From a bacterium (GTDB lineage: Bacteria; Bacteroidota; Bacteroidia; Bacteroidales; Bacteroidaceae): a stretch of DNA of 29,864 bases. Numbering within the stretch: position 1 is the first letter of the stretch; every line of letters starts with the position of its first letter. This document shows, piece by piece, positions 133 to 16,617 of this stretch. Location: positions 1-29,864 of the forward strand of contig SFQP01000003.1 of NCBI GenBank assembly GCA_004562975.1, given 5' to 3'. The position numbers and the translations under genes were made by a program. Under the pieces are notes generated by a model. The model saw only the letters and a list, made by a program, of their open reading frames with translations, did no database searches and was not told where the DNA came from.

Positions 133-1065
133 TTATTGTTTTACTTCGTCGAGCGTGATGCCGAGCACGTCGCTGATGATGGCCTGCCGGGCATACAGTC
201 CGTTGCGAGCCTGCTCGAAGTAGTAAGCGTGCGGGTCGTTGTCCACGTCGTAGGCTATCTCGTTCACGCGGGGCAGCGGGTGGAGTATTTTCATGTTGTC
301 CTTCGCCTTGTGCAGCATATTGGCGCGCAGGATGTACACGTCCTTCACGCGTTCGTACTCCATGAGGTCCGTGAAGCGTTCGCGTTGCACACGGGTCATG
401 TAGAGGATGTCGGCGCCGGCAATCACGTCGGCGTTGAAGTCTTCGTGTTCCTCAAAACGAATGCCATGCTCTCGACAATACAGTTTGTACTCTTCGGGCA
501 TGGCAAGTTCTTTGGGTGCGATAAAGTGGAAGGTGGGGTTGAAGTGGCGCATGGCCATGAGCAACGAGTGTACGGTGCGACCGTATTTCAAGTCGCCTAC
601 GAGGTAGATGTTCAGGTTGTCGAGCGTGCCTTGCGTCTTGTAGATGCTGTAAAGGTCGAGCATGGTTTGCGAGGGGTGCTGGTTGGCGCCGTCGCCGGCG
701 TTGACCACGGGCACGGGCGACACTTCGCTGGCGTAGCGAGCTGCACCTTCCAGGTAGTGGCGCATCACGATGACATCGGCATAGTTGCTCACCATCATGA
801 TGGTGTCCTTGAGCGTTTCTCCCTTCGTGGAACTGGTCACCTTGGGGTCGGTAAATCCGATGACCCTGGCACCGAGGCGGTTGGCGGCTGTTTCAAAGGA
901 GAGGCGTGTACGGGTGGAAGGTTCAAAGAAAAGGGTGGCCACCACGCGGCCGTCCAATATCTTTCGGTTGGGGCGTTTTTCAAATTCCTGGGCCATGCTG
1001 ATGAGGTAGAGCAATTTCTCCCTCGACAGGTTGGCAATCGTTACAAAACTGCGTTTTTCGGTCAT
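133..1065 (-). CDS. pyrB: Aspartate carbamoyltransferase catalytic subunit
   Basis: It catalyses the first committed step of pyrimidine synthesis: carbamoyl phosphate plus aspartate gives carbamoyl-aspartate, in the cytoplasm. The 310-aa product has the usual length of the catalytic chain. Visible signatures are the carbamoyl-phosphate loop STRTR at residues 50-54 (context [12 protein letters not shown]), HPSQ at 130-133, and LHPLPRVNE near residue 260. The start MTEKRSF is the only sensible one. In many bacteria, including Bacteroides as I recall, a regulatory pyrI gene follows pyrB immediately; here 132 bases follow without one. Transcription probably starts from the TATCTTTG box at 1135-1128, which is one end of a palindromic repeat. 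The gene function is very secure; regulation is inferred. Confidence 0.97.
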
Positions 1066-1127
1066 AATGAGGCAACAAAATGATTGATTGTTGAAAAAGG
1101 TGGCTTATCGTTGACCGATAGGCCGGG

Positions 1128-1135
1128 CAAAGATA
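1128..1135 (-). promoter_or_regulatory. Putative -7 promoter element for pyrB inside a palindromic repeat
   Basis: On the minus strand the sequence CCTTGCACTATCTTTG ends at 1128. It contains TATCTTTG, an exact match to the Bacteroidetes -7 consensus TAnnTTTG, about 63 bases before the pyrB ATG. The -33 region falls in the hairpin arm of the repeat, and no clear TTTG is seen there. The assignment rests on motif and position only. Confidence 0.5.
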
Positions 1136-1208
1136 GTGCAAGGCGAGAGAAGAATGAAAAACAAAGCTGAAAGTTTTGTTTTTCTTCTTCCGAGCCGCCG
1201 CCTATATT
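1130..1208 (-). repeat. Palindromic promoter-bearing repeat, copy 1
   Basis: Read on the minus strand: a left box with TATAGGCGGCGGCTCGG (1206-1190), then a hairpin whose arms are GAAAAACAAA (1184-1175 read in reverse) and TTTGTTTTTC (1165-1156 in reverse), perfect over 10 bp with a 9-base loop. The right box CCTTGCACTATCTTTG follows. The outer ends (AATATAG/CTATCTT) also pair with one mismatch. Another right-box remnant (TTGCACTATCTTT) lies directly outside at about 1213-1226, so the copy looks like part of a tandem pair. Confidence 0.75.
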
Positions 1209-1230
1209 ATGAAAAGATAGTGCAAGGAAT

Positions 1231-1329
1231 AATTTACAATTTATTATTTATAATTAGGTCTGGCGACCGTTGTGCAGGACAATAAACCGCCGCAACCATT
1301 GGCGTATCCTTCATTATAAATTGTAAATT
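1231..1329. repeat. AT-rich element bounded by a 14-bp perfect inverted repeat
   Basis: AATTTACAATTTAT at 1231-1244 is the exact reverse complement of ATAAATTGTAAATT at 1316-1329. The 71 bases between are GC-richer. The element sits between the 3' end of cdd (1341) and the palindromic repeat upstream of pyrB. It could be a terminator region for cdd, or a small mobile (MITE-like) sequence. No target duplication was identified with confidence. Confidence 0.5.
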
Positions 1330-1340
1330 ATAAATTGCTC

Positions 1341-1817
1341 TCACACGATTTCGTTGAACGCAAAGGGCAGCAGGTTTTCTATGCCCGTGAGGCGGATGAT
1401 GTGCCGCCTGCCGCAGAGCAACACGCGAATAGGTTTTCCCGCGCGGTTCTGCGCTTCGAGCAAGGCTTGCCGGCAAATGCCGCAGGGCGATATGGGACAG
1501 TCCGTCAGTTCGCCGTTCGTGCCGCGTGCAGCGATGGCGATGGCTTCCACTGCCGCTTCCGGGTGGCTGGAATGCGCATAGAAAAGGGCGGAGCGTTCGG
1601 CGCAGGTGCCGGCACCGAAGGCCGCGTTTTCCTGATTGCTGCCTGCTATCCGGACGTTGCCCTCCAGTTGCAGCGCGGCACCTACGTGGAAATGGGAATA
1701 AGGGGCGTAGCTGGTTTGGGTGGCCTCTTTGGCCAGTTTCACCAATGCCTGCTCGTCGGCCGGTAGTTCTTCAAAAGAAAGCAAGGCATAGGCGATGGTG
1801 AGTTCTTCGTTCTTCAT
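1341..1817 (-). CDS. cdd: Cytidine deaminase
   Basis: It deaminates cytidine and deoxycytidine to uridine and deoxyuridine in pyrimidine salvage. The 158-aa product starts at MKNEELTIAY (ATG at 1817-1815). Upstream in-frame codons would run through a terminator-like hairpin and the promoter box, so they are unlikely to be translated. Zinc ligands and catalytic Glu are visible: TCAER (C72, E74) and PCGIC (C112, C115), the pattern of the small tetrameric class. YAPYSHFHVGAAL (about 38-49) is also characteristic. The gene is transcribed toward pyrB, another pyrimidine gene, but each appears to have its own promoter. Confidence 0.95.
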   Translation of the reverse strand: MKNEELTIAYALLSFEELPADEQALVKLAKEATQTSYAPYSHFHVGAALQLEGNVRIAGSNQENAAFGAGTCAERSALFYAHSSHPEAAVEAIAIAARGTNGELTDCPISPCGICRQALLEAQNRAGKPIRVLLCGRRHIIRLTGIENLLPFAFNEIV

Positions 1818-1826
1818 GTGTAAGAT

Positions 1827-1853
1827 AAAAAGGGCGGGAAACAGTTCCCGCCC
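1827..1853 (-). terminator. Intrinsic terminator-like hairpin directly before cdd
   Basis: On the minus strand GGGCGGGAA, loop CTGT, TTCCCGCCC forms a perfect 9-bp GC-rich stem (1853-1832). It is followed at once by TTTTT (1831-1827). The cdd ATG is only ten bases further on. It can terminate read-through from the sigma/outer-membrane operon upstream, or act as a leader structure of cdd. Confidence 0.7.
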
Positions 1854-1860
1854 AAAAGTA
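1853..1860 (-). promoter_or_regulatory. Putative -7 promoter element for cdd
   Basis: TACTTTTG on the minus strand (1860-1853) matches TAnnTTTG and lies 35 bases before the cdd ATG. It touches the terminator-like hairpin, so a start a few bases downstream would place the transcript start inside the hairpin arm. No clear -33 TTTG is seen. Confidence 0.45.
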
Positions 1861-1872
1861 CACATTTTGCAT

Positions 1873-1952
1873 AAGATAGGCTGCGGCTTGGCAAAGAAAA
1901 TGCAAATCCCCTACGCTTTGCATTTTGCTTTGCACTCGCCTTGCACTATCTT
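1873..1952 (+). repeat. Palindromic repeat, copy 2a
   Basis: The left box AAGATAGGCTGCGGCTTGG begins at 1873. The hairpin arms AAAATGCAAA (1897-1906) and TTTGCATTTT (1917-1926) pair perfectly. The right box CCTTGCACTATCTTTG ends at 1954. The terminal heptamers AAGATAG and CTATCTT are complementary. The -7-like end points away from cdd and toward the end of the outer-membrane gene, so this copy does not drive an obvious gene. Confidence 0.8.
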
Positions 1953-1957
1953 TGAAT

Positions 1958-1992
1958 AAGATAGGCTGCGGCTCGGCAAAGAAAATGCAAAT
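1958..1992 (+). repeat. Palindromic repeat, truncated half-copy 2b
   Basis: Directly after copy 2a a second left box begins (AAGATAGGCTGCGGCTCGG). It runs through the left hairpin arm AAAATGCAAA and then diverges; the right arm and right box are missing. The junction heptamers CTATCTT and AAGATAG, five bases apart, themselves form an inverted repeat. Confidence 0.75.
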
Positions 1993-2044
1993 CTGCCTTT
2001 GGAATAATATGAAAAGAAATTGCACGTAAAACGCCGCTTATCAC

Positions 2045-2962
2045 TTAGTAAAACAGGGATATGCCCACTGATACTGGCGTGAAGTCCGGCCCCCAGTCAG
2101 GGTTCAGCACCTTGCAGGGCGAATATTTGGCATATACGCCGAGCCACTTCCAGTGTACTTGCGCCATGAAGTCCACCGATACCGGTTTTTGGTGCAGGTC
2201 TTTCGTCATTTCCTTGACCTTGTGCGTTACGGTCCGGTTAGGGTAGAACGAGTCGTCCGTCAGTTCGTAGCGCGTCTTCACCGAGGCATACGTGTTGAAG
2301 TTCAGGATGGCCGAAAGGTCCATCTTCCAGTTTCTGTCCATCTTGAAAGTGTAGCGGAAGGGGATGCCGAGGCTGAAGAGCTTGATGCGCGAGAACTCCG
2401 TCTTGGAAGCGTTGTCGGGGTAGCCCGTTGTGGTGAGGATGCCGTTGTCGTCCTTCAGGAAACGGCTGTGGCCCGTCATGCGGAAGTTACGCCAACCGAA
2501 ACTCATGCCGATGGAGAAGTACTGCGTCTGGCGGCGGTTGTACCAACGGTAGTTGAGCGGTTCGAAAGTCATCTCCACCGACGATGCCATGTCAATGTCC
2601 ACATTGCCGGGAGCATCTACGGCATTGACAAATCCCAGGTTAATGCCGCCGAAGCCCCATTTCATGGCTTTGGTACAGAATTTCTTCTTGCCCACCCGCA
2701 TACCTGCTGAAGTCTGCGCCCCTTTTTTCTTGATTTCTTCCATGTGTGTGGCTATGCGCGGGCGGAAGCCGGAGTAAACAAACAGGAAGGTACTGTCGGC
2801 CTCTTTGCCTTTGACGTAGAGGGTAACCGTTTCGCCGTCGTCTTCGAGCACCACTTCTTTGACAGACTTGACATCCACGATGGTATCGTTGACCGTGGAG
2901 GCTTGCAGCCGGCCCGTGAGGCTCAGGAGGCCGGCGAGGATAAACATTGTATATCGTTTCAT
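2045..2962 (-). CDS. Outer-membrane beta-barrel (porin-like) protein
   Basis: The 305-aa product starts with a signal peptide (MKRYTMFILAGLLSLTGRLQA, cleavage likely after QA). From about residue 110 it shows alternating aromatic and polar beta-strand segments, and it ends in SVGISLFY, a typical C-terminal outer-membrane strand with a final aromatic residue. This resembles the small 'outer membrane beta-barrel' families common in Bacteroidetes. A short conserved-looking N-terminal part (VKSVKEVVLEDDGETVTLYVKG) precedes the barrel and resembles that of the next gene upstream. It is the last gene of the sigma/anti-sigma operon, 18 bases after its neighbour. The transported ligand is unknown. 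Confidence 0.8.
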   Translation of the reverse strand: MKRYTMFILAGLLSLTGRLQASTVNDTIVDVKSVKEVVLEDDGETVTLYVKGKEADSTFLFVYSGFRPRIATHMEEIKKKGAQTSAGMRVGKKKFCTKAMKWGFGGINLGFVNAVDAPGNVDIDMASSVEMTFEPLNYRWYNRRQTQYFSIGMSFGWRNFRMTGHSRFLKDDNGILTTTGYPDNASKTEFSRIKLFSLGIPFRYTFKMDRNWKMDLSAILNFNTYASVKTRYELTDDSFYPNRTVTHKVKEMTKDLHQKPVSVDFMAQVHWKWLGVYAKYSPCKVLNPDWGPDFTPVSVGISLFY

Positions 2963-2980
2963 GATGAGGAGTTTGAAGGG

Positions 2981-3847
2981 TTAAATGGTCAGACCGAAGG
3001 TGAGCAGCTGGAAGCGGGGGCCTTGGTCCTTTTTGAAGAGGTAGGTCGGCGTGTACTTGACATAGATGCCGATGATGTCGCTGAAATGGAAATCGGCGCG
3101 GAAGCTCATGCCGAACACATTGCGGTCAAAATGTTTCAGTTTGTGTTCGTACTCGCGGTTGTCCGCCTTGAACTTGTTCCGGACGAAGGGTTTGATGTGC
3201 AGTTCAGGGATGGCCGACAGGTGTATCCAGTTATTGCCAAAGGCGTGGCCGTAGGTGAGGGGAAAGCTGAAGTACGTGTCAATGAGCAGGGACTTCCGCT
3301 TGCGTGTCCCGTCGGGAAACTGCATTATGCTCAGTCGGCCTTCATCCTTGAACCAAAGGTTCCCCTTGTGCTGCTTCATCAGGTTGGCGTTGTAAGCAAA
3401 GCCGATGCTCCAGGAGTCCTTCTTGCCGGGCAGCAGCGAATGCACCTGCAGCAGTTCCATACTGATGTTCCAGCAGCTGAAGTGTTCCGTTTCGGGCACC
3501 TCCTGAAGCGGAATGCTGTAGCCCAGGGAGCAGATGAGGCTGCGGAGCGTGTACTGCGCCGAGCTTTTCTTGTGCGAAGGCTGGAAGGGTAGGGCAAAGT
3601 CCCAGTTACTCGCGTGCTCCTTCACGGAAGTCAGGGCATCGGGCGAGTTGCCGATGGTATAGTTGAACTTGTAGGCGTTGTCGTCCGAGCGTCCGTACAC
3701 CTGTACTTGTGTGAGCGAGTCGCCGGTCGTAATCAGCACGCTGTCTGGGTGGAGCACTTTCACCACCGTGTCGTTCAGACACCGGTCTTCGGCCAGTCCC
3801 GTCAGCGGCACCAGCCCCATGACGAGGGAAAGGAGGAAATGTTTCAT
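2981..3847 (-). CDS. Outer-membrane beta-barrel protein, paralogue of the downstream gene
   Basis: The start is placed at MKHFLLSLVMGLVPLTGLAED (ATG at 3847), because it begins a clean signal peptide; the longer in-frame start adds a non-secretory segment. The 288-aa protein shares its layout with the following gene: signal peptide, a segment beginning NDTVVKVLHPDSVLITTGDSLTQV, then a beta-rich barrel ending LLTFGLTI. The two look like tandem duplicates that have diverged. It lies in the ECF sigma operon, 19 bases after the small secreted protein. No enzyme motif is visible. The role is probably in the cell envelope; the substrate cannot be told. Confidence 0.78.
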   Translation of the reverse strand: MKHFLLSLVMGLVPLTGLAEDRCLNDTVVKVLHPDSVLITTGDSLTQVQVYGRSDDNAYKFNYTIGNSPDALTSVKEHASNWDFALPFQPSHKKSSAQYTLRSLICSLGYSIPLQEVPETEHFSCWNISMELLQVHSLLPGKKDSWSIGFAYNANLMKQHKGNLWFKDEGRLSIMQFPDGTRKRKSLLIDTYFSFPLTYGHAFGNNWIHLSAIPELHIKPFVRNKFKADNREYEHKLKHFDRNVFGMSFRADFHFSDIIGIYVKYTPTYLFKKDQGPRFQLLTFGLTI

Positions 3848-3866
3848 AGAAAAAGAAGTTATGTGG

Positions 3867-4319
3867 TTATGAGAAAATTTTTTGCAGTTCTTCAATGGTG
3901 GCCGTGCCTTCCATGTAGATGATGGTCAGCGTCTTGTTGTCGCCGGCTTTGGAGGGATGGAGGGCATTGTTGCGGTAGAAGATGTATCGCCGCGTCTTGC
4001 CTTGCGGCTTCAGCTGGTAAAATCCGTAATACAGATGGCCTCCGCGCAGGGAAACCTCCTTGTCGATGGCCTGCCGGGCATCGGCCTGTACCAGCTGTTC
4101 TATCCGGTCGCGCTCTGCGTTCGAGGGAGTGAGCGTCAGGCTGCGGAATAGCGAGAGCTTGTACTGGCTGATCTTCTTGCCTTTCAGCAAGACCTCCGTG
4201 GCGTCTTTGCGTTGGCGGTATTGCCCGTTGAATACAGAGGCAATGTGCAGCCCCGTCTGTGCGCAGAGCGGCAGTGCGAGGAGCCATGCCAATAACCAAA
4301 GGATAAAACGATGTTTCAT
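3867..4319 (-). CDS. Small secreted protein of unknown function (DUF6108-like)
   Basis: The 150-aa product has a signal peptide (MKHRFILWLLAWLLALPLCAQ, cleavage after CAQ). The mature part is basic and contains LLKGKKISQYKLSLFRSLTL and, near the C terminus, TLTIIYMEGTATIEELQKIF. I recall similar proteins grouped as DUF6108 in Bacteroides, next to an ECF sigma factor, but this was not checked by a search. It follows the anti-sigma gene after a 100-bp gap and precedes the two barrel proteins. A role sensing or relaying an envelope signal is possible but is only inferred from the neighbours. Confidence 0.75.
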   Translation of the reverse strand: MKHRFILWLLAWLLALPLCAQTGLHIASVFNGQYRQRKDATEVLLKGKKISQYKLSLFRSLTLTPSNAERDRIEQLVQADARQAIDKEVSLRGGHLYYGFYQLKPQGKTRRYIFYRNNALHPSKAGDNKTLTIIYMEGTATIEELQKIFS

Positions 4320-4419
4320 AGTGCCGTGGGGATGGGAAAAAGAGGGGGAGTCGGGTAATCAGACTTTGTCGTGAAGTGTAGGAGAGATGGTACGGTGCCG
4401 GGGTCGTGTCGCCGGGAAG

Positions 4420-4896
4420 CTATTCTTCTAACGGCGTGCGCAACATATCGCCCAGTTGCTGTTCAAAGCCGCAGGTGCCGGTGGGTGCCGCCATGTCGGC
4501 TACCGTTTGGTGCATGGCCGCCATCACCCTTTCTGTATCGGTGGTCCGTACGCCGTTGATGTAAGCCAGACATTGGTTCTGCTGCCGGTACGAATAGGTA
4601 AAAATGGCTGCACCTCCCATCAGCAGACAGCAGGCTGCGGCAGCTGCATAGCGCAGGGTCAGCCTACGCAGTTGCAGCGTGCGGCTGCGGCGTGGCGTCG
4701 TCCGGCTGCGGCTCGCGTAGGCAGCCAGTCCCAGCACGGCGCGCAGTTCGTCGAAGCGGGGCGCGGTTCCTGCTGGCGAAACGGCGAAGCGTTTCAGCCA
4801 TTCCTCTTCGGCTTCCGTGGTCTGCGCTTCAAAGAAACGCTCCGTCAGCCGTTCGGCCTTTTGCAGGGTCAGGTGAGTGGGGTGGATAAGTTTCAT
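4420..4896 (-). CDS. Probable membrane anti-sigma factor
   Basis: The start is fixed at ATG 4896 by a 4-base ATGA overlap with the stop of the sigma gene, which suggests translational coupling. The 158-aa product has a cytoplasmic N terminus with ERLTERFFEAQTTEAEEEW, the kind of short acidic helix seen at the start of many Bacteroidetes anti-sigma proteins. A very basic stretch (about 63-82) comes next. One membrane helix follows at about 82-101 (RYAAAAACCLLMGGAAIFTY), then a short outer part. No zinc-binding HxxxCxxC motif is seen. The role is inferred from architecture and from the partner gene. Confidence 0.75.
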   Translation of the reverse strand: MKLIHPTHLTLQKAERLTERFFEAQTTEAEEEWLKRFAVSPAGTAPRFDELRAVLGLAAYASRSRTTPRRSRTLQLRRLTLRYAAAAACCLLMGGAAIFTYSYRQQNQCLAYINGVRTTDTERVMAAMHQTVADMAAPTGTCGFEQQLGDMLRTPLEE

Positions 4897-5411
4897 GAGG
4901 ATTGGTTTTGTGTGCGCCATGTGTTGCGCACGGTTTGGCGTGCTCTTGAGAGTTGCATCCTTACGGCAGCCTGCTGCATACAGAAGTGGCTGGCAATTTG
5001 CTCGTAAGTGCAGCCGTCGCAGTCGCGCATTTTCATGATGTCCTGCTGGAGGGGCGTGAGCTTTTCCCGGATGATGCGTTCCACCTGCTGGTATTTCTCA
5101 TCGGCGGCAGCTTGCATTTCAGCCGCGTTGTCGGCAATGGTGTCTCGCGTTTCATCAATGGGCACCGATTGTTCCGCCTGTCGTCGTCGCACCCGGTCAA
5201 TGCTCAGGTTGCGGACGGTGGTGGTCATCAGTGCCGGTGCAACGTCGGGTGGCACTTCCGGGTATTTCACCCACAGCCGTACAAAGGCATCTTGCAAAGC
5301 GTCTTCCGCGTCTTCCTTGTTGCCTGTGATGAGGCGGGCCATCTGTTGCAAACCCTGGCGCATCCGTCTGAAAACCTCCGGCAGTGCATTTGTTTCGGCC
5401 GGTTTTGCCAT
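4893..5411 (-). CDS. ECF-type RNA polymerase sigma factor
   Basis: It directs RNA polymerase to a small regulon, probably including its own operon. The start MAKPAETNAL (ATG 5411) gives 172 aa, normal for the family; a longer frame would add a lysine- and phenylalanine-rich segment unlike sigma factors. Sigma region 2 is at about 13-80 (NKEDAEDALQDAFVRLW, then TTTVRNLSIDRVRRR). Sigma region 4 is at about 105-165 (LTPLQQDIMKMRDCDGCTYEQIA, then QLSRARQTVRNTW). The gene heads a five-gene operon with its anti-sigma factor and envelope proteins. The upstream gap lacks an exact TAnnTTTG box (nearest TTCCTTTG), so control by another sigma, or by itself, is possible. Confidence 0.93.
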   Translation of the reverse strand: MAKPAETNALPEVFRRMRQGLQQMARLITGNKEDAEDALQDAFVRLWVKYPEVPPDVAPALMTTTVRNLSIDRVRRRQAEQSVPIDETRDTIADNAAEMQAAADEKYQQVERIIREKLTPLQQDIMKMRDCDGCTYEQIASHFCMQQAAVRMQLSRARQTVRNTWRTQNQSS

Positions 5412-5546
5412 TGTGCGTAGGTTTTGTTTATAAGGTAAACGCAAAGGAATGTGTTTTGTAACGTCTTTTTTAAGGTGAAATGTAGTTTTTTTTGAAAAAA
5501 AGAGTGTGTGCATGAAGATAAGCCTTGGCTGTTTGTATTTTTCGAT

Positions 5547-5625
5547 AAGACAGGCTGCGGCTCGGCAAACAAAATGTAAATCCGTTGGCTTTGCATTTTG
5601 CTTTGCACTCGCCTTGCACTATCTT
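5547..5625 (+). repeat. Palindromic repeat, copy 3a
   Basis: The left box AAGACAGGCTGCGGCTCGG starts at 5547. The arms AAAATGTAAA (5571-5580) and TTTGCATTTT (5590-5599) pair with one G-T. The right box CCTTGCACTATCTTTG ends at 5627. It is followed after a few bases by copy 3b in the same orientation. Confidence 0.8.
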
Positions 5626-5630
5626 TGAAT

Positions 5631-5707
5631 AAGATAGGCTGCGGCTCGGAAGAGAAAAAACAAAACTGGCGTTTCGTTTTTTTTCTTCTCTCACCTTGCA
5701 CTATCTT
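5631..5707 (+). repeat. Palindromic repeat, copy 3b
   Basis: The left box AAGATAGGCTGCGGCTCGG starts at 5631. The hairpin is quite different in sequence from copy 3a: the left arm AAGAGAAAAAACAAAAC (5650-5666) faces the right arm at 5671-5691, which begins GTTTCGTTTT and ends TTCTTCTCT, so pairing is kept. The right box CCTTGCACTATCTTTG runs to 5709. Confidence 0.8.
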
Positions 5708-5709
5708 TG
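5702..5709 (+). promoter_or_regulatory. Putative -7 element for the lipoprotein/permease operon
   Basis: TATCTTTG exactly matches TAnnTTTG and lies 50 bases before the lipoprotein ATG at 5759. It is the right end of repeat copy 3b. The -33 region is the T-rich hairpin arm (TTTCG near 5672). Confidence 0.55.
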
Positions 5710-5758
5710 CCCGAGTTTTTAACGGGTGTTTATATCCCTTAACCTCAATCCTTTGCTG

Positions 5759-6280
5759 ATGCGACCTGTTTCCTTCTTATATATAATAGGTGTGCTCCTC
5801 TGCTTTTCGGCCTGCGTTTCGGAAGATGCGCCCGATGCCGAGCCAGCAGATGGCCGTGGTGATGTGGTCAGGGTGGGGCAGCAGTTGCCCGCCTTCAGCG
5901 TGCAGCTGTCTGACGGAACCCCAGCCGGCAATTCCCAATGCTGGGGCAGGCAGAGCGTCATCGTTTTTTTTCACACCTCCTGTCCCGACTGCCGGCGCGA
6001 GCTGGCCGAGTTGCAGCAGGTATATGCAGAAAGGGGCGACAGTGTTTGCTTTCTCTGCATCAGTCGGCAGCAACCGGCCGAAGAGGTGGCGTCTTATTGG
6101 CAGGAAAACAGTCTGACGCTTCCTTATTCCGCACAGCCTGACAGAGCGGTGTATAACCTTTTTGCCACAGCCTACATACCCCGCGTTTATGTGGCGGATA
6201 CGGCCACCGTGGTGCGCACCCTCTTTGTGGAGCAGATGGGAGCCGGCCAGCTGCGCGCCGCGCTCGACGAATTGAAATAA
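5759..6280 (+). CDS. Thioredoxin-fold lipoprotein (TlpA/ResA-like)
   Basis: The product is predicted to be a membrane-anchored disulfide oxidoreductase facing the periplasm. The start MRPVSFLYIIG (ATG 5759) gives a lipoprotein signal with lipobox FSAC (Cys19). A thioredoxin-like domain covers about 38-170: VGQQLPAFSVQLSDG as in the AhpC/TlpA entry segment, redox motif CPDC (C75, C78) after IVFFHTS, and the cis-proline region YIPRVYV near 150. It has 173 aa. Residues 20-37 are an acidic linker. The partner could be a cytochrome-maturation or outer-membrane protein, but nothing in the window decides this. A nucleoside permease follows 24 bases downstream, so the two are probably co-transcribed. 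Confidence 0.85.
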   Translation: MRPVSFLYIIGVLLCFSACVSEDAPDAEPADGRGDVVRVGQQLPAFSVQLSDGTPAGNSQCWGRQSVIVFFHTSCPDCRRELAELQQVYAERGDSVCFLCISRQQPAEEVASYWQENSLTLPYSAQPDRAVYNLFATAYIPRVYVADTATVVRTLFVEQMGAGQLRAALDELK

Positions 6281-6304
6281 ACTTTTTTACAAATCTGATA
6301 AACC

Positions 6305-7570
6305 ATGAATTGTTTTGTTCTGAAAACGCGCCTCACGGCGATGAATTTTCTGGAGTTTGCCGTGTGGGGAGCTTACCTCACCTCGATGGGAGCCTATCTG
6401 GCTTCGCACGGCCTGGGACCTCACATCGGTTGGTTCTACGCCATACAAGGTATAGTTTCTCTCTTCATGCCCGGCCTGATAGGCATCATTGCCGACCGCT
6501 GGATACCCGGGCAGCGGTTGCTCGGCCTGTGCCACCTGCTGGCTGGCGGCTTCATGCTTGCTGCCGCCGCTTATGCCCTCCGTGCCGGCGAGGCGGTGGA
6601 GCTGGCTCCGCTTTTCAGCCTGTACACGCTGAGCGTGGCCTTCTATATGCCTACCATCGCGCTGAGCAATTCGGTGGCCTTCTGCGGGCTGACACAGGCC
6701 GGTCTGGACACTGTAAAGGCGTTCCCGCCCATCCGCGTGTTCGGCACGGTCGGTTTCATCTGTACCATGCTGGCTGTCAACTTCCTCGGATTTCAGGATA
6801 ATCCTTACCAGCTCGCATTGTCCGGCGGCCTGAGCCTGGTGCTGGCGGTCTATGCCCAGACACTCCCCCCGTGTCCCGTCAGCAAAAGTGCCGGACGCAA
6901 GTCAGTAGCTGATTCGCTTGGCCTCGATGCTTTCAGGCTGTTCAAGCAGCGGCGCATGGCGGTGTTCTTCATCTTCTCCATGTTGCTCGGCGTAAGCCTG
7001 CAAATCACCAATGGTTATGCTAACCCCTTCATCTCCGGTTTCCGGGATATTCCCGAATATGCCGGCACCTTCGGTGCGAACAACGCCAACGCCCTCATTT
7101 CCCTTTCGCAGATGAGCGAGACTCTCTGCATCCTGCTCATTCCCTTCTGTCTGAAGCATTTCGGCATCAAGCGCGTCATGATGATTTCCATGTTGGCGTG
7201 GGTGTTGCGCTTCGGCCTCTTCGGTCTGGGCGACCCGGGACCCGGCGTGTGGATGTTCGTGCTCTCGATGATAGTTTACGGCGTGGCTTTCGACTTTTTC
7301 AACATCTCGGGAGCCTTGTTCGTTGACCGGCATACGCAGCCCGAAATCCGGAGCAGTGCGCAGGGATTGTTCATGATTATGACCAATGGTTTCGGTGCTT
7401 CCATCGGTACCATCGCCGCCCAGGAAGTGGTGAACCATTTCGTCTATTTCGTTCCCGAAGCCCAACAGCTGGAAGGCTGGCGCACGTGCTGGTTCATCTT
7501 TGCCGCCTACGCTTTCATCGTTCTCGTGTTCTTCACCTTTATTTTCAAAGAGAAGGAAACAAGAAGCTGA
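6305..7570 (+). CDS. Nucleoside:H+ symporter family permease (NHS/NupG-like MFS)
   Basis: The 421-aa inner-membrane protein has about 12 predicted helices. The N terminus LKTRLTAMNFLEFAVWGAYLTSMGAYL closely follows the NupG/XapB pattern, and FYAIQGIVSLFMPGLIGIIADRW matches the first MFS loop. Helices are rich in Gly, Ala and Phe throughout, and the central loop (KSAGRKSVADSLGLDAFRLF) is short and charged. It probably imports nucleosides with protons, which fits the nearby salvage gene cdd, although they are not in one operon. MNCFVL or the internal Met13 could be the start; the first gives the complete N-terminal segment. Substrate preference is not visible. Confidence 0.9.
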   Translation: MNCFVLKTRLTAMNFLEFAVWGAYLTSMGAYLASHGLGPHIGWFYAIQGIVSLFMPGLIGIIADRWIPGQRLLGLCHLLAGGFMLAAAAYALRAGEAVELAPLFSLYTLSVAFYMPTIALSNSVAFCGLTQAGLDTVKAFPPIRVFGTVGFICTMLAVNFLGFQDNPYQLALSGGLSLVLAVYAQTLPPCPVSKSAGRKSVADSLGLDAFRLFKQRRMAVFFIFSMLLGVSLQITNGYANPFISGFRDIPEYAGTFGANNANALISLSQMSETLCILLIPFCLKHFGIKRVMMISMLAWVLRFGLFGLGDPGPGVWMFVLSMIVYGVAFDFFNISGALFVDRHTQPEIRSSAQGLFMIMTNGFGASIGTIAAQEVVNHFVYFVPEAQQLEGWRTCWFIFAAYAFIVLVFFTFIFKEKETRS

Positions 7571-7579
7571 TTTTTAGAT

Positions 7580-7737
7580 AAAATAGGTGGCAGCTCGGCA
7601 ATGGAAAAGTAAAATCCTGTGGCTTTTTAATAAAGCCGGCTGCAGTTCGGAAAAGAATGGAAAACTTTCGTTTCCCATTCTTTTCTCTCACTTTGCACGG
7701 CTTTTCTTTTTCCATTGCGCTCGCCTTGCATTATCTT
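7580..7737 (+). repeat. Palindromic repeat, copy 4 (outer element)
   Basis: The outer left box AAAATAGGTGGCAGCTCGG starts at 7580. Its arm CAATGGAAAAG (7599-7609) pairs with CTTTTTCCATTG (7706-7717) with one extra T. The outer right box CGCCTTGCATTATCTTTG ends at 7739. Between the arms lies a second complete element (7632-7704), so this copy is nested. Confidence 0.75.
7632..7704 (+). repeat. Palindromic repeat, copy 4 (inner nested element)
   Basis: The ends AAAGCCG (7632-7638) and CGGCTTT (7698-7704) are exactly complementary, although both differ from the AAGATAG/CTATCTT ends of other copies. The inner arms GAAAAGAATGGAAAAC (7650-7665) and GTTTCCCATTCTTTTC (7670-7685) pair over 16 positions with one mismatch (A-C on one strand, G-T on the other), loop TTTC. 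The -7 box of the right end is lost (TTGCACGGCTTTT). Confidence 0.75.
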
Positions 7738-7739
7738 TG
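7732..7739 (+). promoter_or_regulatory. Putative -7 element for trxA
   Basis: TATCTTTG at the right end of repeat copy 4 matches TAnnTTTG and is 42 bases before the trxA ATG. This spacing would give a leader of about 35 bases. Confidence 0.6.
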
Positions 7740-7781
7740 CCCCGTGAAACGCAATATCCATTACTCTAAAACAAGAATACA

Positions 7782-8096
7782 ATGGCAAAAATCATCACTG
7801 ACGCAAACTATGCGGAATTATTGGAGGCTGGAACGCCTGTCGTAATCGACTTCTCCGCCACCTGGTGCGGACCTTGCAAGAAAATTTCGCCCATCATCGA
7901 CGAACTGGCCGATGAATACGAGGGCAAGGTCGTCATTGGCAAGTGCGACGTGGACGACAACGATGAACTGACTTCACGCTTCGGCATCCGCAATGTGCCC
8001 ACCGTGCTCTTCATCAAAAACGGTGAGGTGGTCGACAAACATGTCGGCGCAGCACCCAAGAGCGAATTTGTTTCCAAAATCGAAGCCCTGCTCTAA
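7782..8096 (+). CDS. trxA: Thioredoxin
   Basis: It is a cytoplasmic dithiol reductant for ribonucleotide reductase, peroxiredoxins and other partners. The 104-aa product is the standard size. The active site WCGPC lies at 28-32 in VIDFSATWCGPCKKISP. The buried Asp (D23), the cis-proline segment RNVPTVLFIKNGEVV (about 71-85) and the C-terminal helix are present. It has its own promoter in the upstream repeat and a strong terminator downstream, so it is probably a single-gene unit. No signal peptide is present, unlike the thioredoxin-fold lipoprotein 1.5 kb upstream. Confidence 0.98.
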   Translation: MAKIITDANYAELLEAGTPVVIDFSATWCGPCKKISPIIDELADEYEGKVVIGKCDVDDNDELTSRFGIRNVPTVLFIKNGEVVDKHVGAAPKSEFVSKIEALL

Positions 8097-13550: not shown

Positions 13551-13620
13551 TCATCTCGGGATAATCATCTCGGGATAATCATCACGGGATAATCATCACG
13601 GGATAATCATCACGGGGCAT
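13551..13620 (+). repeat. 14-bp tandem repeat, five units
   Basis: The unit TCATCTCGGGATAA occurs twice (13551-13578), then TCATCACGGGATAA twice (13579-13606), then a partial fifth (13607-13620, TCATCACGGGGCAT). It starts one base after the umuD stop and ends 48 bases before the umuC start. There are no spacers, so it is not a CRISPR array. Confidence 0.9.
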
Positions 13621-13668: not shown

Positions 13669-14958
13669 ATGTACGGCATTATTGATTGCGACAACTGCTA
13701 TGTGAGTTGCGAAAGGGTTTTCCGTCCGGATCTGGAGGGAAAACCCGTGGTGGTGCTGTCGAACAACGACGGCTGCGTGGTGGCGCGGAGCAACGAGGCC
13801 AAGGCACTGGGCATCAAGGCCGGCACGCCCTATTTCCGGCTGGGACAGCTTTTCCCGCAGGCCAAGATTGCCGTGTTCTCATCCAACTATGAGCTTTACG
13901 GCGAAATGACTTCGCGCGTGGTGTCCATCATCCGGGCCGAGGCGCCGGCATATTTCCGGTATTCCATTGACGAGTGTTTCGTCTGTTTCCGCGGGATGGA
14001 GGGCACGGACTATAAGGCGTGGGGCGAAAGGCTGCACCGGAAAATCAGGCAATGGACGGGTATGCCCGTGAGCATCGGGCTGGGTCCCAACAAGACGGTG
14101 GCCAAGGTGGCCAGCCACTTCGCCAAGAAATTCCCGGGCTACCGGCATTGCTGCCTTATCGACACGGAGGAGAAACGCCGCCGGGCCTTACAGCTCTATC
14201 CCGTGGAGGAGGTGTGGGGCATCGGCCGGAAATATGCGGCCAAGCTGTGGGGGCTGGGCGTGAAGACAGCCTACGACTTTGCCGAACGGCCCGAGGAGTG
14301 GGTGAGGGCGGTGTTCCGCAACGTGGTGGTTTACCGCACGTGGGCCGAGCTTAACGGCCACGACTGCGTGCCCAACGAGGAGTTTGCCAAGAAGAAAAGC
14401 ATCTGCACCAGCCGCAGTTTCAACGGGATGGTGTGCGACGTGGAAACGCTGGGCACTCACGTGGCCAACTTCGCCGCCCGGTGTGCGGAGAAGTTGCGGG
14501 CACAGCAAACGGTGGCCTCGACGGTGGGTGTCTTTCTGCAAACCAATGCTTTCCGCGAGGACCTGCCCCAGTATTGGAACTTTGCCGAGGAACGGCTGCT
14601 CACGCCGACAAACGCCACGCTGTCAGTGGTGCAGGCGGCCAAGGCGGCACTGCGGCAGATTTTCAGGCCGGGGTTTCATTACAAGAAAGCCGGTGTCATC
14701 GTGCTGAACGTGACACCGGACAATCCCATCCAGTTCGATCTTTTCGAGATGACCCCGGAGCGGTACAGCCGGCTGAGGGCTCTCGACGAGGCTTTGGACC
14801 GCGTCAACCGTCTCTATGGCTCGGAAACCCTCGTCGTCGGCGCGCAGCAATATACGGTGCAGGGCGGGAAGGCGGTGGTCTTCGCCGATGCCGTGAAGCA
14901 TGACTTCAAAAGCCCCAACCCCACGACGCGCTGGTGCGACGTGTTGAAGCTGAAATAA
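13669..14958 (+). CDS. umuC: UmuC-like Y-family translesion DNA polymerase
   Basis: It is the catalytic subunit of DNA polymerase V, which copies past lesions. The start [18 protein letters not shown] (ATG 13669) gives 429 aa with the first metal-binding Asp at the family position; the in-frame ATG ten codons earlier would add a poorly conserved stretch. Visible motifs are [20 protein letters not shown] in the fingers, YSIDECFV with the catalytic Asp-Glu pair (about residue 100), and [21 protein letters not shown] as the helix-hairpin-helix. The little-finger and UmuC C-terminal region includes [10 protein letters not shown]. It pairs with the upstream umuD. Confidence 0.95.
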
Positions 14959-15078
14959 GGTTATGAGGGATAAGGTTATAAAGTAACTAACAGGGTGGAG
15001 GAACATGTATCCCTTTCTAATAGTAACATTATAACCTCATAACCTCATAACCTTATAACCTCATCCCTCATAACCTTA
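14956..15078. repeat. Octamer-rich inverted repeat between convergent umuC and HD genes
   Basis: TAAGGTTATGAGGGA (14956-14970, starting with the umuC stop) is the exact reverse complement of TCCCTCATAACCTTA (15064-15078, ending with the HD gene stop). The right side is a run of the octamer ATAACCT(C/T), at least five times between 15031 and 15078. The left side has the inverse octamer twice. It may serve as a bidirectional terminator, although there is no clean U-tract. Confidence 0.8.
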
Positions 15079-15696
15079 TACTTTCCCCTCCATCACCGCC
15101 ATCACCTCGTCGATCATGGCTTGAGGCAGGGTAAATCGGGGGTCGTCCAGCGGTGAGGTGATGGCCGTCAGGAAATGGGGCCATTCCTCGTGGTACACCT
15201 CCTTCATGTGGAGGTTCATCCGATGGGCGTGGGAAAAGGAATAGGTGATGTTTGCCAGCCGGTCGGCCAGTTTCACGAAGGGCGCATAGGCCGTTTGCCT
15301 GATGCCTTGATAGTATCTTTCATCAGCGCGTTCCGCTCTGGTGCGTCCTTTTTCGTTGGTCAGGGCGTAGACAATTTCGGCGGCGGTCAGCGCGCCGTCA
15401 TCGTCCATCCACCGCAGTGCAGTGCGTTTCACGTCGTTGTACGATAGCCGAGCGTCCTCTATGCTGTCGTGGTAGAAAGCCCCGAAGAAGAGCGGCAGGA
15501 TGTCCGCCTCTGAGGCGCATACGGCGTGCCCGTAGCGGTGCACCGCGTCGGCCACCATGTCAAGGTGGTAGCCGTAGGGGCGCGTTTTGTCATACATCTG
15601 GTTCACGCTGTCGTGCAGGCTGTGTGCGCTTTCGCGTATTTGGGAAATCGCTGCGGCGTGGTGTTCCACCCACTGTTCAAACGTAGTTCTGTTCAT
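15076..15696 (-). CDS. HD-domain phosphohydrolase, MESH1/SpoT hydrolase-like
   Basis: The 206-aa cytoplasmic protein has the metal-binding pattern of the HD superfamily: H44 (GYHLDMVADAV), H76-D77 (FYHDSIEDAR) and D145 (VKLADRLANITYS). The spacing and the phrases FGAFYHDSIED and KLADRLAN are those of the hydrolase half of RelA/SpoT and of small alarmone hydrolases. No synthetase, TGS or ACT domain is present. It may hydrolyse (p)ppGpp or a related nucleotide; the exact substrate is inferred from family. The gene converges on umuC, and the stops share the ends of an inverted repeat. A DNA-damage link is possible only by position. Confidence 0.85.
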   Translation of the reverse strand: MNRTTFEQWVEHHAAAISQIRESAHSLHDSVNQMYDKTRPYGYHLDMVADAVHRYGHAVCASEADILPLFFGAFYHDSIEDARLSYNDVKRTALRWMDDDGALTAAEIVYALTNEKGRTRAERADERYYQGIRQTAYAPFVKLADRLANITYSFSHAHRMNLHMKEVYHEEWPHFLTAITSPLDDPRFTLPQAMIDEVMAVMEGKV

Positions 15697-16516: not shown

Positions 16517-16617
16517 AGGGGTGTTCTGTAAATCAGGTTTTAAAGAATACCCCATGAGTGTACTCATATATTCCGGCTGTCTTCTGCTCAGCTCGGCCTA
16601 ATTTATAGAACACCCCT
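16517..16617 (-). repeat. 101-bp element closed by a 17-bp inverted repeat upstream of ribH
   Basis: AGGGGTGTTCTGTAAAT (16517-16533) and ATTTATAGAACACCCCT (16601-16617) pair over 17 positions with one mismatch. Inside lies the small inverted repeat ATGAGT-GT-ACTCAT (16554-16567). On the minus strand an AACACC (16633-16628), just after the TPR gene stop, can compete for the same GGTGTT arm (16614-16609). Hence two exclusive folds are possible in a transcript running into ribH. Confidence 0.65.

Follow-up and report, generated by a model that had tools for sequence, protein, structure and literature searches.

We sought to establish what kind of sequence fills the gaps beside pyrB, a lipoprotein gene and trxA in a Bacteroidaceae contig (SFQP01000003.1; the 29,864 nucleotides analysed are referred to below as the window), and whether it could serve these genes as a promoter. 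A preliminary description, made from the letters alone, had reported six palindromic units plus partial copies, and a repeat search and motif counts bore this out. Unit U1 (1126..1210, minus strand; cmsearch 97.7 bits) ends in a -7 box, TATCTTTG, at 1135-1128, which faces the start of pyrB (aspartate carbamoyltransferase; 133..1065, minus strand; Pfam PF02729 and PF00185) at 1065, 62 nt away; a remnant right box lies upstream of the unit (1212..1227, minus strand). Unit U2 (1871..1955, plus strand; 94.7 bits; -7 box 1947-1954) points, according to the open reading frames, at the 3' end of a minus-strand gene, and is followed by a half copy consisting of left box and left arm (1956..1999, plus strand; repeat families D1 and D3). 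Units U3 (5545..5628, plus strand; 91.9 bits) and U4 (5629..5711, plus strand; 88.8 bits) form a two-unit array. The -7 box of the gene-proximal U4 (5702-5709) lies 49 nt from the ATG at 5759 of a thioredoxin-like (Redoxin, AhpC/TSA) gene (5759..6280, plus strand; Pfam), judged by eye to carry a lipoprotein signal. Downstream of a nucleoside H+ symporter gene (6305..7570, plus strand; PF03825), unit U5 (7578..7741, plus strand) was recognised from its sequence and its fold (z -5.0); its -7 box (7732-7739) is 42 nt from trxA (7782..8096, plus strand; PF00085). U5 is split by an inner unit nested in its arm (7630..7706, plus strand; 77.3 bits; fold z -5.3) that has no -7 box. The right boxes of U1, U2, U3, U4 and U5 all terminate in TATCTTTG, and that of the inner unit is CGGCTTTT. 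The right boxes had been said to face pyrB, the lipoprotein gene and trxA, which is true of the -7 boxes of U1, U4 and U5.

The left-box pattern matched seven times in the window (six within units) where 1.14 matches were expected, and the right-box pattern ten times (six being true right boxes) where 1.32 were expected; neither total was attained in any of 100 shuffles. Each window unit can, by folding prediction, form one long hairpin. The DNA folding z-scores of the five uninterrupted units were -4.5, -4.4, -1.7, -3.1 and -5.3, beside the -5.0 of the interrupted U5; the fold of U3 was weak, with 13 of 200 shuffles equally good. The outer stem of U3 (AAGACAG/CTATCTT) has a single mismatch, and that of the inner unit (AAAGCCG/CGGCTTT) differs from the others in a compensated way. 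A scan of the window with 4227 Rfam models at E up to 1 gave no match to the units. Separately, weak Rfam miRNA matches at 14959-15073 correspond to an unrelated inverted repeat.

To ask how far the units extend beyond this contig, a covariance model was built from five of them; it returned no separate hit for U5. In G001, the nearest genome, 109 distinct copies were found in about 0.78 Mb of examined sequence, mostly chosen around matches, so that the family is dispersed and has many copies outside the window. The 110 model matches in G001 include at least six opposite-strand repeats. One copy set used 88 of 105 rows, after removal of opposite-strand hits of kept copies, one copy cut by a contig end and a weak same-strand unit (L121:9558-9656); a second set from G001 used 21 of 24, two being cut by contig ends and one having an E of 0.33; a third used 102 of 106, four opposite-strand rows being dropped. 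Counting G001, matches were present in 64 of 101 genomes of the family sample and 40 of 58 of the genus sample, and 15 of the 38 genomes reached through named loci had them as well (for example Alistipes muris with 29 and Prevotella falsenii with 5). A phylum-wide sample of 296 genomes, in which G001 alone matched, carries little weight, since just 15 candidates per genome were scored under strict filters. No match was found in the plasmids searched; nine unannotated human faecal phage records showed partial similarity, and among viral contigs 14 exact matches to a 17-letter left-box pattern included none that the model confirmed. No name for the family was found in the accessible literature, most subscription papers lying outside its coverage, and the eight papers whose text contained any of five box oligomers were unrelated, judging by their titles.

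Members of the family are dispersed hairpin repeats, some 60-90 bp long and thus too short to hold a gene. It consists, in order, of a left outer arm X', a left box (GGCTGCGGCTCGG and variants), an inner stem, a right box (CTCGCCTTGCA and variants) and a right outer arm X. The boxes are conserved and the inner stem changes fast. The right outer arm of most long copies is the sigma-ABfr -7 box, (C)TAnnTTTG, and the inner right arm frequently contributes a -33 box, TTTG, 19 nt further upstream. Copies occur singly, as tandem arrays or nested. G001 has a 68-nt subclass with neither a -7 box nor a preferred orientation, and off-promoter copies carry wholly different yet matched outer arms (CGGCTTT, CGATGAT, CGAGATT).

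If the arms changed independently, pairing should fall to the level of shuffled arms. The stems had been described as co-varying, and the changes were indeed paired well above shuffles. With one unit taken per array, the outer 7-bp stem varies among loci and still pairs in 821 of 868 cells (5000 shuffles, which ignore descent among copies, gave a mean of 707 and a maximum of 734), and 90 of 124 outer stems are perfect, where shuffling gave at most 52. Measured as covariation, the outer stem (93.7% paired) scored 0.299, against 0.095 when shuffled and at most 0.061 when slid. In three genomes, chimeric inner hairpins were less stable than the native ones by about 5 kcal/mol. In 16 of 216 copies at least one arm escaped parsing. 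These results bear on the possibility that the palindromes are operators, that is, binding sites of one regulator that arose in place at the promoters of its regulon. Promoter-proximal position and conservation of both boxes would fit such sites; inner arms that vary widely with pairing retained would not, nor would scored copy numbers that run from 0 to 77 per genome inside one genus, tandem arrays, nested copies, or the G001 subclass that lacks both box and orientation preference. We regard operators as unlikely.

We next consider the right end, which had been described as promoter-like and oriented to genes. This holds across arrays in three genomes, where 81 of 86 decidable arrays that end in TAnnTTTG point at a gene start (38/38, 22/23 and 21/25 per genome), two of the 81 lying more than 1 kb from the called start. 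The other five point the wrong way, as does U2 in the window. Among G001 arrays without this end, 16 of 31 face a start (Fisher 5e-7), and the median distance is 31 nt for TAnnTTTG-ended arrays versus 175 nt for arrays without. Gene starts came from a custom ORF caller, which failed to call the window's lipoprotein gene. Intergenic TAnnTTTG motifs outside the elements served as a control, and 72-79% of them already point at a start; the arrays clearly exceed this level in G001 (p 1e-4) and G071 (p 0.006) and do not clearly do so in G106 alone (p 0.16). The full arrangement TTTG-N19-TAnnTTTG was present in 19/39, 16/23 and 5/27 cases in the three genomes. Since it is a minority in G106, and since the subclass without a -7 box has TTG at N19 in 20 of 21 copies, the N19 spacing alone does not mark a promoter. 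A full -7 box is kept in 44 of 52 gene-proximal units and 21 of 75 internal units, a contrast that is modest in G071 (13/16 vs 12/27). We infer from these sequence features that the right end starts transcription.

The same data speak to a reading in which the hairpin acts in RNA, as a leader transcribed from upstream that serves as attenuator, stability element or other regulatory structure. A strong covarying hairpin is what such a leader would have, and in an array the promoter of an upstream unit would transcribe the next unit. However, the gene-proximal -7 box marks the end of the hairpin, and a transcript begun at that box would leave the hairpin out; internal units mostly lose the full box, no T tract follows the stem, and the window has no Rfam match. 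An RNA leader is in our judgement very unlikely.

How the copies arise can be approached by comparing relatives. Two comparisons with a near relative revealed differences of whole units, with a -7 box in both alleles: Prevotella falsenii and its relative are two 66-bp units apart at one promoter; at a second the length difference is 68 bp, made up of a single 67-bp unit and 1 bp. Direct repeats of about 16-20 bp are present at P. falsenii loci. The polarity of these differences could run either way, as deletion between flanking direct repeats would be expected to look alike; two distant relatives have hairpin-like sequence at the first promoter. In the sister contig L001 the trxA gap contains neither a unit nor TAnnTTTG. 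At mtaB, arrays occur in three species; in each of the six further relatives whose upstream DNA could be read, a TAnnTTTG box stands without a unit. The inner unit of the window has a direct repeat of GGCTTTT on both sides (7621..7627 and 7699..7705, plus strand), a candidate 7-bp target-site duplication whose right copy also falls within the right outer arm of the unit. Across solo units a general target-site duplication was not found: an exact repeat of the unit's own X was seen in 0 of 67, and one of at least six of seven letters in 5 of 67. Aligned at the correct offset, left flanks of solo units look like a -7 box, with 2.97 of 7 letters matching (the next offset gives 2.91, the others 1.4 to 2.3). 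They are not matched to the unit's own X (462 of 5000 permutations were as high), and simple duplication of the -7 box was therefore not adopted as a general rule.

The preliminary description had called the family REP- or MITE-like and suggested looking for a Y1 (RAYT) transposase gene. Presence and absence among relatives make MITE-like mobility plausible, while REP proper is unsupported. A REP/BIME family mobilised by a RAYT enzyme would explain high-copy dispersed palindromes, and Y1_Tnp does occur in 28 of 58 genus genomes. Its presence is not associated with copy number (12 of 22 genomes with at least 10 copies vs 16 of 36 with fewer), the high-copy genomes G155, G153, G131 and G111 lack it, the 3.3 kb around the sole Y1 gene of G001 contain no copy, and the units exceed the 20-40 bp of REPs (PMC3733652). 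We consider this origin highly improbable, unless the gene is missing from the draft assemblies or works from another location; no mobilising enzyme was found.

Taken together, the units are probably MITE-like dispersed hairpins that act as a portable promoter. The MITE features seen are terminal inverted repeats (821/868 cells), absence of coding capacity and many dispersed copies (109). A unit adjoining a gene would supply that gene with a promoter. Units may spread by transposition or by copy-paste between promoters. Local multiplication yields tandem arrays, and it is chiefly the gene-proximal copy of an array that keeps its -7 box intact. Promoter selection would maintain the -7 half, and the arms, including the complement of the local -7 box, would be kept paired chiefly through replication template switching in the hairpin. 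A more specific version, which we put forward tentatively, is a promoter-homing, self-adapting element that would insert at an existing -7 box, leave a working box by the gene and have its left arm rewritten as the complement of the local -7 box or other target sequence. At mtaB the sequence is CTAACTT in every one of the three units of G155 and CTACCTT in those of G150, the closest relative of G155 in that search, and the left arms match in both genomes; G001 has CTATCTT and a matching arm in its gene-proximal unit, and its two inner units are mismatched. Should the right ends prove active, dozens of genes in each genome of some Bacteroidales, pyrB and trxA here probably among them, would draw their promoter from a dispersed repeat, which would be a direct way to rewire expression in this abundant gut and oral group. 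Because promoter function constrains one arm of every promoter-bearing unit and leaves the other free, the family could also be used to test whether perfect stems persist through selection for pairing or through template-switch repair.

Several known systems share part of this design. According to the portion of the source available, Correia elements of Neisseria are short non-coding repeats in more than 100 copies, often upstream of genes and carrying promoters (PMC10969869); by description they are alike as short, dispersed, promoter-bearing repeats near genes. They belong to a different phylum and sigma factor, and unlike them each of our units is a whole hairpin with a fast-changing stem and a terminal arm that is the -7 box, and occurs in tandem arrays. 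The BrickBuilt MITE of Porphyromonas gingivalis, which had lacZ promoter activity in E. coli (PMC4596501, available in part), shares a Bacteroidales host, intergenic location and MITE-like nature; as described there, it is assembled from 23-nt direct repeats plus a leader and a tail, whereas our units are hairpins whose arms covary and which carry a single outward promoter box. REP, REPIN and BIME sequences are likewise abundant extragenic palindromes; REPs are 20-40 bp with a GTAG or CGTC end tag (PMC3733652), whereas these units have 60-90 bp, no such tag by eye in the copies inspected and no link to a RAYT gene. At -7 and near -33 the units agree with sigma-ABfr promoters, which have TAnnTTTG and TTTG there (PMC7366714, in the text seen). 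B. thetaiotaomicron is reported, in the part of the paper seen, to have 1,997 inverted repeats, 569 holding potential promoters (PMC10994844); the available text of these two papers describes no dispersed repeat family. Some of these inverted repeats, or the near-palindromic motif PM2 of PMC7366714, may be of a similar kind to our units. Bacteroides invertons, finally, share a promoter associated with inverted repeats; there the promoter lies between the repeats, whereas in these units the sequence places the -7 box inside the right arm itself.

Repeat and motif searches bore out the six palindromic units, with partial copies, that the preliminary description had placed across four gaps of the window. 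These are U1 (1126-1210, minus strand), U2 (1871-1955) with a half copy directly 3' of it, U3 (5545-5628), U4 (5629-5711), U5 (7578-7741) and an inner unit (7630-7706) that interrupts an arm of U5; a remnant right box lies at 1212-1227. The left-box pattern matched the window seven times, six of them inside units, against 1.1 expected, and the right-box pattern ten times, six being true right boxes, against 1.3 expected. None of 100 shuffled windows matched either box total. Fold z-scores were -4.5, -4.4, -1.7, -3.1 and -5.3 for the five uninterrupted units and -5.0 for the interrupted U5, and no unit of the window matched Rfam. The inner unit has GGCTTTT on both sides, a 7-bp direct repeat, and in its outer stem AAAGCCG/CGGCTTT replaces AAGATAG/CTATCTT, a change that keeps the pairing. 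As had been proposed, -7 boxes (the sigma-ABfr motif TAnnTTTG) stand ahead of genes: that of U1 62 nt from pyrB (133-1065, minus), that of U4 49 nt from a lipoprotein gene that is thioredoxin-like by Pfam (5759-6280), and that of U5 42 nt from trxA (7782-8096). U2 points at the 3' end of an opposite-strand gene. Pfam likewise assigned pyrB, trxA, a cytidine deaminase (1341-1817, minus), a sigma factor (4893-5411, minus) and a nucleoside H+ symporter (6305-7570). The window also contains about five tandem copies of a 14-bp TCATCACGGGATAA-like unit (13551-13620), an imperfect inverted repeat with 30-nt arms and a 65-nt spacer (14955-15079) whose weak Rfam miRNA matches are surely spurious, an inverted repeat with 21-nt arms unrelated to the hairpin units (16517-16617), and an AT-rich inverted repeat in the interval separating the U1 remnant from the cytidine deaminase gene (1219-1341).

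The locus nearest to the window came from an uncultured Bacteroidales MAG, G001, with a symporter 80% identical. R1, a covariance model built on five units of the window, gave 110 matches there, some being opposite-strand repeats, with 150 of 577 first-look candidates scored. The 109 distinct copies counted in 60 fetched stretches of this genome establish the dispersed family that had been suspected. Contigs C13, C58, C75, C90, C118 and C145 of G001 stop at a unit or ~100 bp or less from one. The repeats may therefore interrupt assembly, and the copy numbers are minimum values. R1 also matched G003 (16), G004 (4) and, weakly, G002 (2), with no match in three other genomes of the same search. 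Matches were present in 64 of 101 sampled genomes of the family of G001, in 40 of 58 of its genus (0 to 77 matches, 77 being the candidates scored per genome), and in 15 of 38 genomes reached via named loci. This genus takes in Candidatus Equimonas faecalis (G109, locus L018; Bacteroidaceae at NCBI). Among the genomes reached via named loci, the model matched Alistipes muris (29), an Alistipes senegalensis MAG (11), Alistipes sp. UBA934 (10), Prevotella falsenii (5) and a Bacteroides sp. MAG (31); a phylum-wide sample of 296 genomes, searched at low sensitivity, gave matches in G001 only. A link to a Y1 (RAYT) transposase did not hold up: Y1_Tnp was found in 12 of 22 genus genomes with at least 10 copies versus 16 of 36 with fewer, and in none of the high-copy genomes G155, G153, G131 and G111.

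The 109 copies of G001 form 73 arrays, of which 46 hold one unit, 20 two, 5 three and 2 four, and fall into two main length classes of ~84 and ~68 nt. Most copies of the short class end in AATCTTTG and lack the TA of the -7 box. Diverged subfamilies outside G001 have altered boxes and keep the plan, for instance AAATTAC/GTAATTT in G003 and AATATAG/CTATATT in Alistipes. Some 68-nt copies without a -7 box (L132:2388-2455, L146:13071-13138, L150:182-249, L125:5499-5566) share flanks, GGGCTATGCGCTCGTTA-like upstream and, in most, GGGGCGTGCCTTGAA-like downstream, and may thus be part of a larger repeat. Three arrays on separate G001 contigs (L111:4561, L114:2587, L128:6666) have the identical upstream sequence ttcattccataatcacttacttt, perhaps another repeat. 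A unit with outer stem AATCTCG/CGAGATT is seemingly nested in another unit at L138:11567-11636 and L149:1482-1551, also in G001. On a Prevotella sp. contig (L286:1207-5054), four units in one orientation at ~1.0-1.8 kb spacing look like a cassette array; the two fully read have outer stem ATGATTG/CAATCAT and lack a -7 box.

Arrays were sorted solely by the presence or absence of TAnnTTTG at the right end; the -7/-33 consensus is that given in PMC7366714. All 38 decidable arrays with the motif in G001 pointed towards a gene start (1 undecidable), as did 22 of 23 in G071, 21 of 25 in G106 (with 2 undecidable) and, in the window, 2 of 3; the 81 facing arrays of the three genomes include two that lie over 1 kb from the start as called. 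Without the motif, the counts were 16/31 in G001 (3 undecidable), 3/3 in G071 and 1/1 in the window. The median distance to the start was 31 nt with the box versus 175 nt without. TAnnTTTG motifs that lie in gaps but belong to no element served as the control; they pointed towards starts in 146/185 (G001), 155/214 (G071) and 88/120 (G106) cases. Gene-facing was commoner among the elements than in this control for G001 (p 1e-4) and G071 (p 0.006), as the idea of a promoter-like right end would have it, but not clearly so for G106 taken alone (p 0.16). In multi-unit arrays, the gene-proximal unit carried the full box in 19/24, 13/16 and 12/12 cases (G001, G071, G106), and internal units in 5/32, 12/27 and 4/16. 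TTTG preceded the box by 19 nt in 19/39, 16/23 and 5/27 cases, but the G001 class without a -7 box has TTG at that position in 20/21, so the spacing alone proves nothing.

The proposed covariation of the arms was supported in copies from the window, G001, G071 and G106 (216 collected, 200 parsed; one unit per array, n=124). The outer 7-bp stem was paired in 821 of 868 cells, whereas shuffling the right outer arm, X, within each genome gave a mean of 707 (sd 7.3, maximum 734 in 5000). Perfect outer stems numbered 90/124, and shuffles reached at most 52. X is mostly C-T-A-n-C-T-T, which with the following TG gives the -7 consensus TAnnTTTG; position 4 takes all four letters (T 86, A 21, C 15, G 2) and pairs in 121/124, and position 2 is A in 26/124, mostly in the class without the box. 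In 102 distinct G001 rows, aligned by fitting to the structure and including opposite-strand rows, 93.7% were paired, with covariation of 0.299; the shuffled value was 0.095, and slid values did not exceed 0.061. Native inner hairpins (RNA parameters) gave -11.3, -11.0 and -13.2 kcal/mol in G001, G071 and G106, and chimeric ones -6.6, -6.1 and -7.6; 70, 84 and 44 chimeras per 600 reached the native median. All these controls (shuffled, slid, chimeric) leave descent among copies in place. At the expected offset, the left flank of solo units resembles a -7 box, yet a unit's own X was repeated there exactly in 0/67 and at 6 or more of 7 letters in 5/67. The arms may be matched through selection for pairing, or through copying of the left outer arm, X', from the target during insertion. 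Template switching in hairpins can create perfect stems, and repair them, in a single step (PMC8794818). Template switching would account for matched arms both at promoters and away from them (CGGCTTT, CGATGAT, CGAGATT), and for similar inner types with differing outer stems, a combination that was judged by eye.

Relatives differ in the presence of units. In L001, a sister contig, the symporter-trxA gap has neither unit nor TAnnTTTG, and the lipoprotein gene has an ordinary TACATTTG and no unit. Ahead of a gene that we take to be mtaB stand arrays of three units, with the ends CTAACTTTG in G155, CTACCTTTG in G150 and CTATCTTTG in G001. At this locus seven further relatives gave no model match; each of the six whose upstream DNA could be read has a TAnnTTTG box, the seventh sequence being cut short, and in one (L234) the letters ahead of the box resemble the right box. 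P. falsenii G189 and its relative G570 differ by 132 bp at a first promoter, corresponding to two 66-bp units, and by 68 bp at a second, one 67-bp unit plus 1 bp; G570 keeps one -7 box at each, and the upstream box TACCTTTG of the second is identical in both. For the first gene, three (L256-L258) of ten relatives at greater distance have TATCTTTGCATA and no unit, which favours a gain in P. falsenii. A deletion between the direct repeats on either side would be indistinguishable from absence, and two other distant relatives (L267, L268) have hairpin-like sequence ahead of the box, so the change may have gone either way.

A hairpin ending in a -7 box, with the other arm mirroring it, was not found in the literature searched by topic and by sequence, subscription papers being mostly uncovered. 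Many promoter-associated inverted repeats are recorded in B. thetaiotaomicron (PMC10994844). The general kind is already known: Correia and BrickBuilt elements are short repeats bearing promoters, as the units here appear to be.
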